From contig WFZC01000042.1 in assembly GCA_015489765.1 (NCBI GenBank), positions 1 through 45,657 of the forward strand: a DNA stretch of 45,657 nucleotides, given 5' to 3'. Shown in pieces: positions 5,027 through 26,053 of this stretch (within the stretch, counting starts at the first letter, position 1; the number at the start of each line of letters is the position of its first letter). The DNA comes from Desulfobulbaceae bacterium (GTDB taxonomy: Bacteria; Desulfobacterota; Desulfobulbia; Desulfobulbales; Desulfobulbaceae). The position numbers and the translations under genes are program-made. The notes under the pieces were generated by a model. The model saw nothing but the letters and a program-made list of their open reading frames with translations. It was not told the DNA's origin and did not search any database.

Positions 5027-5285
5027 TGTCATTCCCGCGGTCTGTTGGGCGGGAATCCAGTAATCATCCCGCGGCCTGGCATCTCTCTGGATCCCCGACA
5101 AAAAAATCTCGGGGATGACGTTTTTCTATCATTCCCGCGGTCTGCCCCCACTCCGTCATTCCCGCGGTCTGTTAGGCGGGAATCCAGTAATCATCCCGCG
5201 GCCTGGCATATATCTGGATCCCCGATAAAAAAACCTCGGGGATGACGACCCGTCCCCGAATATCGGTGGGCGGGAATCCAGGATA
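5027..5285. repeat. Family A palindromic repeat, two near-identical copies
   Basis: 'gtcattcccgcggtctgttgggcgggaatccagtaatcatcccgcggcctggcat...tctggatccccga...ctcggggatgacg' present twice. Confidence 0.9.
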
Positions 5286-16436: not shown

Positions 16437-17615
16437 ATGGCGACAATAAGGAGAGGTCTCTTTTTCCTGCTCATTCTCATCTTTCCGTTCCCGGTTGTTG
16501 CGGTTAATCCTCAGGCAGCGACCGCGCCGATGGCGTTGAAATGTGATATCCACTTTACCGACGATCTTGACTACCATCTTCTCCACGAGGCCATCCAGGA
16601 AAGCCTCCACTATCTCCGACAACGGCCGGCAACCGCTGAATTCCCTCTGGGCGCCCGTTCCTGCACCACCAGACATCTGATCCGTTCCCTTCTCTTCTTT
16701 GATCATCTCATTGCAAGCCGTCCTTCGCCACAACTGTTATCCCTGGAACTTGCTACCTTTTTCGACATCTACCAGGCGGCGGGCAGGGAACATACCGCCT
16801 CAGCTGGCACAATGCTGGTTACCGGGTATTATCAACCGGTTTTTCAGGGAAGTCTAGTCCAGACGCCCCCGTTTCTCTATCCCCTGTATGGAATTCCGAA
16901 CAACCTTGTTCTTCGCCGCAATCACAGAAATGGCTCTGTCCAGCCCGGTCGTTTCCAGGGGAACCGTTTCACTTCATACTGGACCAGAGAAGAAATAGAA
17001 CGTAACGGATATGCAAAGGGAAGCGAACTTGTCTGGCTCAAGGACCCTTTTGATGCCTATCTTCTCCATATTCAAGGGTCAGGTCTTATCAGGCTGCGGA
17101 ACGGATCTCTCAGGGGCATCCACTATGCCATGAAAAACGGTCGCCCTTACACCAGTATCGGTAAATACATGATCCATACCGGCAAAATCACCCGTAAAGG
17201 GGTGGGGATCGATACCATCCGACAATACCTTGCTGACCATCCGGCAGAACTCCAGGAAATCCTGTACACCAATCAATCCTTTATCTTTTTCCAGTGGACA
17301 CGGGGCCACGATGCCATCGGTAATCTCGACCGCCCCCTGACGGCTGGACGATCCATCGCCGTTGACCAACGTTGCTTTCCTGCCGGAGCTCTTGCCTTCC
17401 TGCAAAGCAAAAAACCTGTTTTTGACCGCAACAATCAGCAACAGTGGACAGCGCTCAATCGTTTCGTGCTGGTTCAGGACACAGGTTCAGCCATTCGGGG
17501 CCCAGGCAGAGTGGATCTCTTCTGGGGAACCGGAGAACAGGCAGGAACGGCAGCCGGAAAAATGAAAGAAAATGGCATGCTCTTTTTTCTTCTTCTGAAA
17601 AAGCGGTTTCTTTAA
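16437..17615 (+). CDS. mltA: Membrane-bound lytic murein transglycosylase A
   Basis: GTMLVTGYYQPVFQGS, LHIQGSG, 3D-like domain FVLVQDTGSAIRGPGRVDLFWGTGEQAG. Confidence 0.93.
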   Translation: MATIRRGLFFLLILIFPFPVVAVNPQAATAPMALKCDIHFTDDLDYHLLHEAIQESLHYLRQRPATAEFPLGARSCTTRHLIRSLLFFDHLIASRPSPQLLSLELATFFDIYQAAGREHTASAGTMLVTGYYQPVFQGSLVQTPPFLYPLYGIPNNLVLRRNHRNGSVQPGRFQGNRFTSYWTREEIERNGYAKGSELVWLKDPFDAYLLHIQGSGLIRLRNGSLRGIHYAMKNGRPYTSIGKYMIHTGKITRKGVGIDTIRQYLADHPAELQEILYTNQSFIFFQWTRGHDAIGNLDRPLTAGRSIAVDQRCFPAGALAFLQSKKPVFDRNNQQQWTALNRFVLVQDTGSAIRGPGRVDLFWGTGEQAGTAAGKMKENGMLFFLLLKKRFL

Positions 17616-17622
17616 GCCGTTC

Positions 17623-17652
17623 TTGTACATTTCTTTTTTCCTCTGCTATAAT
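17623..17652 (+). promoter_or_regulatory. Candidate sigma70 promoter upstream of the SAM hydrolase gene
   Basis: TTGTAC-18 bp-TATAAT just after the mltA stop. Confidence 0.45.
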
Positions 17653-17769
17653 TCCACTTGATGGTGACAGGAATTTCCGATCCACCCGGCACCACATGCC
17701 CCGTCGCCAGGTTTTCAATGTAACAAGATGAAATTATACAAAATAAACAGCAAGACAGCTGGTACATCT

Positions 17770-17925
17770 GTAACTTCTCAATAACTGAGGGTAAGTTGCT
17801 GCTAATTATATGGATTCCGGCCAACAACCTGCCGGAATGACCCAGTTGCAGGCAATTCAGAGCGTCATCCCCGCAGTCTGTTGGGCGGGGATCCAGACTT
17901 ATATCACCACTTATTGAGAAGTTAC
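17770..17925. mobile_element. MITE-like non-autonomous element, 156 bp
   Basis: Perfect 15-bp TIRs GTAACTTCTCAATAA (17770-17784) / TTATTGAGAAGTTAC (17911-17925), flanked by exact 8-bp direct repeats GTACATCT (17762-17769 and 17926-17933). No ORF. Confidence 0.85.
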
Positions 17926-17962
17926 GTACATCTTAATGCCCGCATACAAGGAATTATCTGTT

Positions 17963-18766
17963 ATGAGCTATACAAATATTATAACATTGACAACGGATTT
18001 TGGTCTAAAAGACCCTTACGTGGGCCAGATGAAGGGGGCTATTCTTAAACGAAACATCTCCAGCCGCATCTTTGACCTGACCCATGCCATCAACCCCCAT
18101 GACATTCTTGCCGGAGCCGTCACAATCCGTACAAGTTACCGCTATTTCCCCGATGGCACCATTCACCTGGTCGTTGTTGATCCGGAGGTGGGCAGTCAGC
18201 GCGGTATCCTTGCCGCAAAGGGAGACAATCATCTCTTTATTGCCCCTGACAACGGACTGCTCTCGCTGCTGGTTAAGGATGAAAAGATACAGAGAATTCA
18301 TCGGGTGGAGAACAGCTCTCTTTTCCCCGCTGAAGTAAGCGGCACCTTTCACGGCAGAGATATCATGGCGCCTGTGGCCGCAGCCCTGGCCGCAGGACTG
18401 CCCATTGACCGGGTAGGGCCTGAAGTCTCATTTTCTGACTGCGTACAGCTTGACATTCCAGAACCGGAAATCGACAATAATCGTATCAGCGGCCAAATGC
18501 TTCATATCGACCATTTCGGCAATATCAAAACCAACATTACCACCAGACATCTGAGCAGATTCCAACCGGCAACTTTTACAGGAATCACTATTTCAAATTA
18601 TACAATCAATGCTATCTCAAGCACATATAACGACCAGCCCCCAGGTGAACTCGTTGCCCTTATCGACTCTTCCGGATACCTGGAAATTGCCGTCAACAGG
18701 GGCAATGCCGCAGAACTTACGGGTTGCTCTGCCGGTGATCCCATTATCGTTCAATACGGTTCCTGA
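17963..18766 (+). CDS. SAM hydroxide adenosyltransferase / SAM hydrolase (DUF62 family)
   Basis: MSYTNIITLTTDFGLKDPYVGQMKGAI...VVVDPEVGSQRGILA...FIAPDNGLL...FHGRDIMAPVAAALAAG...IDHFGNIKTNI. Confidence 0.92.
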   Translation: MSYTNIITLTTDFGLKDPYVGQMKGAILKRNISSRIFDLTHAINPHDILAGAVTIRTSYRYFPDGTIHLVVVDPEVGSQRGILAAKGDNHLFIAPDNGLLSLLVKDEKIQRIHRVENSSLFPAEVSGTFHGRDIMAPVAAALAAGLPIDRVGPEVSFSDCVQLDIPEPEIDNNRISGQMLHIDHFGNIKTNITTRHLSRFQPATFTGITISNYTINAISSTYNDQPPGELVALIDSSGYLEIAVNRGNAAELTGCSAGDPIIVQYGS

Positions 18767-25667: not shown

Positions 25668-26053
25668 AAACAAGCATGGATGGACCAAATTTTTCCGTCC
25701 CAGCCACAACGAATGATGAAAATAGTCCGAAAGGACACAGCTACGCGGGATATTATCGGCTAAACGACACTGGATCCCCGATAACAGCCCCCGGGGATGA
25801 CGGGTAAAGGGGACGGGTCCTTTTATTTCATTGCCGGACTGAAAAATGGACATCTTCTCTGTCATCCCCGCGAAGACGGGGATCCAGGCCCACAGGCAGT
25901 ACGTTCCAGGCAGAACACCAATTCATGAGGGCACCGGATCGGCGTCTCTTCGTGGGCGATTTTCAGATAAGCCAACATGCCTTGGCGATACAACAAACCA
26001 TGAAAATCAACAGGTTACGTTAAAAAACTTGCGTAACCTTATTTTCGGATAAA
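25668..26053 (+). repeat. Composite family B / family A repeat block
   Basis: B: 'tggaccaaatttttccgtcccagccacaacgaatgatgaaaatagtccgaaaggacacagctacgcggga'. A: 'gtcatccccgcgaagacggggatccaggcc'. B: 'attttcagataagccaacatgcc...tgaaaatcaacaggttacg...attttcggataaa'. Confidence 0.75.

Follow-up and report, generated by a model that had tools for sequence, protein, structure and literature searches.

A 156-bp MITE with IS66-type ends and an inverted REP pair upstream of a SAM hydrolase gene in a Desulfobulbaceae genome

The DNA analyzed here, hereafter the window, is a stretch of 45,657 nucleotides from a Desulfobulbaceae bacterium (assembly GCA_015489765.1, contig WFZC01000042.1, forward strand). Between a promoter-like site and a gene for SAM hydrolase (SAM hydroxide adenosyltransferase, DUF62), it contains a short sequence bounded by inverted repeats and direct repeats, raising the question of what this sequence is, how it came to this site, and why its interior is palindromic. 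The feature is very probably a single member of a MITE family that amplified recently and has ISBst12-like IS66 ends, which would be moved in trans and which carries a REP pair as cargo.

The element, its insertion site and its copies in the host

The perfect 15-bp terminal inverted repeats (TIRs) and exact 8-bp flanking repeats claimed in a preliminary description of this DNA, made from the sequence alone, were both confirmed (Table 1): the left TIR reads GTAACTTCTCAATAA, the right is its exact reverse complement, and complementarity between the ends of the element is 94% across 18 bp. When up to two mismatches are allowed, the TIR has only 2 matches in the window, versus 0.02 expected from dinucleotide shuffles. 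No ORF of at least 80 aa lies within the 156-bp element, and the two internal hairpins that had been reported are located at 17814–17838 and 17867–17892.

Table 1. Features of the SAM hydrolase locus and of the inserted element (window positions)
Feature	Position	Strand	Remarks
MltA-type lytic transglycosylase gene	16437..17615	+	upstream
TTGTAC-18-TATAAT promoter-like site	17624..17653	+	upstream of insertion
Target-site duplication, left copy, GTACATCT	17762..17769	.	
156-bp MITE, non-autonomous IS66/ISBst12-type element	17770..17925	+	
Left terminal inverted repeat	17770..17784	+	IS-end homology to ~25 bp, consensus GTAACTTCTCAATAACTGATGGTAA
Left subterminal arm	17785..17810	+	total left arm 41 bp
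REP palindrome 1, TGGATTCCGGC...GCCGGAATGAC	17811..17841	+	
REP palindrome 2, CGTC-tagged	17864..17895	-	head-to-head with palindrome 1, opposite orientation
Right subterminal arm	17896..17910	+	total right arm 30 bp
Right terminal inverted repeat	17911..17925	-	
Target-site duplication, right copy, GTACATCT	17926..17933	.	
SAM hydrolase (DUF62) gene	17936..18766	+	PF01887, PF20257

The insertion had also been placed between a TTGTAC-18-TATAAT promoter and the DUF62 gene, which is correct as geometry: the promoter-like site is present, is conserved in three congeners, and is near-identical across all four genomes. Because the site is kept in all four, the insertion adds 164 nt to the leader between this site and the gene (the element plus one copy of the target-site duplication). 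The true start of the SAM hydrolase gene is likely the ATG at ~17963, behind AAGGA. The congener G005 (97% identity in the SAM hydrolase gene) has an unoccupied homologous site that reads GACAG-GTAAATTT-TAACGCC, against GCTG-GTACATCT-element-GTACATCT-TAATGCC in the window; this empty site argues against a sequence conserved at the locus. The element is also absent from the SAM hydrolase locus of two further congeners, G002 and G007.

Searching the host genome (3.89 Mb, 387 contigs) returned 40 alignments to the MITE at E < 1e-35, or 49 if nine contig-edge ends are included, and 74 TIR ends with at most one mismatch, as compared with none for the reversed control. These ~40 copies, which share the TIR pair and mostly carry 8-bp duplications, bear out the earlier reading of the element as a MITE, as does the unoccupied congener site; the objection that the TIR pair might have no other copies thereby fails. 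Ten TIR ends outside the full copies were read; each lies no more than ~85 bp from a contig end and continues as the same MITE, so the element breaks the assembly. Among 27 complete copies, the 8-bp duplication is perfect in 16 and has one mismatch in 7, the remainder being worse or shifted. The copies diverge from their consensus at 1–6 of 156 positions (~2%, one mis-oriented copy left out), indicating that the amplification in this host is young. Insertions are mostly intergenic or immediately upstream of a gene, and among copies whose flanks allowed joining, no long gene clearly interrupted by the MITE was found.

Target motif and the family-B palindrome

Insertion sites collected from all loci number 85 distinct sites with no more than one mismatch in the duplication. 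Those outside the hotspot described below share a weak symmetric motif, GTTA-N4-[8 bp]-N4-TAAC, with GTTA occupying positions −8 to −5 relative to the duplication and its mirror TAAC positions +5 to +8; the most conserved-looking T, at −6, is present in 64% of them, and none of 500 random site sets attains the observed information content. A matrix built from 63 sites in other genomes places 13 of the 16 non-hotspot host sites within the top 5% of window positions, while the SAM hydrolase site itself ranks as mediocre (top 12%).

The hotspot is a repeat, here called family B, that consists of GGTTACGCA-TGTTTTTT-AGCGTAACC plus flanks and contains the motif as a palindrome. Its loop is where 16 of the 33 distinct right ends lie, along with 12 of the 31 distinct left ends, or up to about half of the MITE ends (copies with one extra T were added to these counts by eye). 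Hairpin geometry was considered as a general target cue and rejected, as only the hotspot sites stand out by it and the base motif explains more. The window itself holds an unoccupied family-B copy at 26001–26053 on the minus strand (GGTTACGC-AAGTTTTTTA-ACGTAACC), and the repeat occurs on many host contigs. In other family-B copies (L356–L365; G005, G000, and G002), the loop holds a GTAGGAGCGG REPIN of ~120 bp and not the MITE, so that this palindrome hosts two mobile units unrelated to each other. A congener copy of the MITE (L083, G002:C435:1121-1276), 98% identical to the window element, likewise occupies a family-B loop and is flanked by a perfect TGTTTTTT duplication; it may have been transferred recently, may be inherited from a common ancestor, or may come from mixed bins.

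The accumulation in family B could alternatively reflect one or a few insertions that were multiplied as passengers whenever the repeat itself was copied. The hotspot insertions all have one orientation relative to the repeat (12 left and 16 right ends, none reversed), so that some copies could have spread with the host repeat and not by their own transposition; additionally, three copies have the mismatched duplication GGTTTTTT/TGTTTTTT in common, exactly or in closely similar form. However, copy C374 is flanked at both ends by its own local variant, TGTTTTTC, and copy C247 lies between arms that have diverged strongly (6/26 and 4/26 mismatches). Outer flanks vary among copies, hotspot and non-hotspot MITEs form no separate groups, and the matrix learned elsewhere selects, within the top 0.06% of positions, exactly the position in family B that is actually used. 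On this evidence, the passenger explanation seems unlikely to account for the hotspot, although it retains appreciable weight: the C374 and C247 copies are clearly separate insertion events, and other hotspot copies may have spread with the repeat.

A putative parent in the ISBst12 group of IS66

A TIR search across the order located paired ends, separated by ~1.78 kb, in two genomes of the same family that each consist of a single contig. Both pairs bound complete insertion sequences, of 1784 bp (G098) and 1777 bp (G099), with the same TIRs and 8-bp duplications (ATTCATCC and CTTTCTTC, respectively), each filled by one ORF encoding a transposase of 531–533 aa and lacking tnpA and tnpB. The transposases score 67.9 and 68.2 bits against PF03050 (DDE_Tnp_IS66; cut-off 23.1); the 124 bits obtained against the NCBIfam IS66 model fall below its cut-off of 180 and count against the assignment. 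A search of PDB sequences with the parent transposase returned no match. The GTAA-starting ends and 8-bp target duplication are as in the IS66 family, and the complete elements share 15 to ~25 bp of their ends with the MITE. Homology between MITE and IS stops beyond the ends and thus gives no support to a descent by internal deletion.

More distant relatives extend this pattern. Those in G099 (31%–32% identity) have the ends GTATCCTCTCCAAAA, with perfect 8-bp duplications in seven of the copies read. In G027, an element of 2576 bp shares the start of the TIR and has intact ends, an 8-bp duplication, and a transposase 54% identical; it additionally contains, beside the transposase, a DruA-like gene (PF14236, Druantia defence family; L306:505-1380). 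In a cyanobacterial relative (L250), the same TIRs lie ~1.8 kb apart around a transposase that is 42%–48% identical and in two pieces, with no matching target duplication. A further ISBst12-like element (L153, G099:C1:870658-878462) is split by ~6 kb of inserted DNA, with the first 57 codons on one side and the remainder on the other. Because related insertion sequences share ends and duplications, and because the TIR of ISDge4 (GTAACTGCTCAGCA), an ISBst12-group element with an 8-bp repeat, a single ORF, and observed transposition (PMC12898284), is nearly the same, the assignment of the parent to IS66, and within it to the ISBst12 group, is well supported at the sequence level. The preliminary description had assigned the element to IS66 only tentatively; complete IS66-family elements in related genera, with the same ends and 8-bp duplications, now strengthen that assignment.

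No transposase with MITE-type ends was found in the searched contigs of the host's fragmented assembly, which apparently include none below ~3 kb, so that a collapsed 1.8-kb insertion sequence would escape detection. Nor was an autonomous copy found among these contigs: the TIRs read outside full copies are contig-edge pieces of the MITE, and different ends (GTAAGCGC..., GTAACCGTTCAC..., GTAATTGGTCAC...) bound the IS66 elements that the host does have. With no such transposase found in these contigs, mobilization in trans is what we infer. The lack of a matching IS66 transposase in the assembly would also fit movement by another 8-bp-duplicating family (e.g., IS256-like), the IS66-like ends being convergent. 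This appears very improbable, as complete IS66-family elements share both the 15 to ~25 bp ends and the duplication length, and as ISDge4 has nearly the same end (PMC12898284).

REP pairs as cargo, and comparison with known systems

Inside the element, two REPs of the same kind form an inverted pair that spans 85 bp, between arms of 41 and 30 bp. Palindrome 2 (CGTCATCCCCGC...GCGGGGATCCA) carries a CGTC tag, which in palindrome 1 reads GGTC, a degenerate form. The CGTC tag, a stem of 8–9 bp with terminal AT, and a CCA tail agree with CGTC REPs; the loops of 9–10 nt depart from the 4–5 nt of that class, and the palindromes are therefore called CGTC-type and are not assigned to any of the four published families. 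The host contains 115 such palindromes; of the 92 that were listed, 50 are MITE-borne and 42 lie outside MITEs; G004 and G007, congeners in which no full MITE was found, contain 50 and 8, respectively. The palindrome family therefore is independent of the MITE. The earlier suggestion that the element had spread these palindromes (there termed family A) stands for the 50 MITE-borne ones, by which the MITE has about doubled their number in this host; it does not hold for the other 42, nor for the congeners that have the palindrome without the MITE. Free-standing CGTC-type REP pairs in opposite orientation, without MITE ends, also occur in the window at 1083–1466, 5028–5246, and 25771–25886.

The same TIRs enclose other interiors elsewhere. 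In G027, which belongs to a related genus, they bound an 81-bp GTAG REPIN, with arms of 34 and 41 bp, and some other copies of this REPIN in that genome lack the TIRs; in the CSMAG_1163 genome they bound elements of 64–68 bp that contain no such palindrome and show duplications. Subtracting the REP pair leaves 71 bp for the window element and 75 bp for the G027 element, near the naked 64–68-bp forms. Read most simply, minimal MITEs would first have acquired REP pairs and afterwards been amplified together with this cargo, an order of events suggested by these sizes and interiors. Same-ended MITEs with still other palindromic interiors (L179–L267; CCTCCCCCTT/AAAGGGGGA, GTAGGTTGGGTT, and CCCTCACCC types) occur in other genomes, mostly of Desulfobulbaceae and relatives.

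An interior made of an inverted REP pair is also what would be expected if the unit were a REPIN moved through its palindromes by a RAYT tyrosine transposase, the outer inverted repeats being incidental. We consider this highly unlikely: complete copies are bounded by TIRs and 8-bp duplications and not by palindromes, elements with the same TIRs and other or no palindromes carry 8-bp duplications as well, and CGTC-tagged REPs, a class that includes the Neisseria dRS3 repeat, apparently have no dedicated transposase (PMC3733652). The notion that the element originated as a regulatory structure conserved in the 5′ leader of the SAM hydrolase gene, and merely resembles a transposon, can draw on its location between promoter-like site and gene and on a strong predicted RNA fold (−61.9 kcal/mol, z −5.8), but is refuted, with a negligible residual probability, by congeners that lack the element here, by its presence at many unrelated loci, and by an Rfam search that matched no family; a secondary effect on SAM hydrolase expression is nevertheless possible.

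In the preferred reading, that of a MITE with ISBst12-like ends and a REP pair as cargo, an ISBst12-like transposase supplied in trans would bind the ~25-bp ends and move the 156-bp unit, inserting it by an 8-bp staggered cut at sites resembling GTTA-N4-[8]-N4-TAAC and so generating the 8-bp duplications; the transposase itself would read the target motif. The head-to-head CGTC-type pair would be cargo that a minimal MITE, ~70 bp long, acquired and carried along as it multiplied. More broadly, ISBst12-like MITEs may act as general REP vehicles, with ~70-bp MITEs repeatedly taking up unrelated inverted REP pairs (CGTC-type, GTAG, and likely others), an IS66-type transposase spreading them, and the palindromic target motif steering copies into other palindromic repeats. 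This generalization is tentative, and we rate it as somewhat less than evenly balanced; if true, it would provide a transposase route for CGTC REPs, for which no dedicated one is known. CGTC-type palindromes are widespread, and a MITE with DDE-transposase ends that carries a pair of them in ~40 copies is in any case a concrete route of spread for such REPs. The symmetric target motif amounts to a testable statement on a transposase family that has been little studied, and offers a straightforward explanation, at the level of sequence, for why such elements collect in palindromic repeats.

In the open literature searched, with subscription papers and ISfinder outside its scope, no IS66-derived MITE was found, nor were papers that link Electrothrix or Desulfobulbaceae to MITEs; IS66 goes unmentioned in a review of prokaryotic MITEs from 2024 (PMC10969869). 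The novelty of an IS66-derived MITE is not certain. As a MITE the element is ordinary; its REP cargo, target motif, and palindrome hotspot are new and unusual. With the ISBst12 group (e.g., ISDge4; PMC12898284) it shares the GTAACT-N-CTCA start of its ends and the 8-bp duplication, but whereas its complete relatives are ~1.8 kb long with one PF03050 transposase, the window element has 156 bp, no transposase, and an unrelated interior. Like MITEPsy1, MITEAba12, Chunjie, and the QMITEs (PMC10969869), it is short, ORF-less, TIR-bounded, mostly intergenic, and multicopy with duplications; unlike them, it has IS66-type ends, a REP-pair interior, and a symmetric target motif. The CGTCATYCCSGC stem, CCA tail, and head-to-head pairing resemble CGTC-tagged REPs and dRS3-like repeats (PMC3733652), from which it differs in its longer loops and in its carriage within a MITE with DDE-transposase ends. 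Finally, IS1397 and other REP-targeting insertion sequences, known from the IS3, IS110, IS4, IS256, and IS5 families with IS66 not listed (PMC1525189), are likewise mobile elements that land in palindromic repeats; here, however, the GTTA...TAAC motif, and not REP identity, explains the target.
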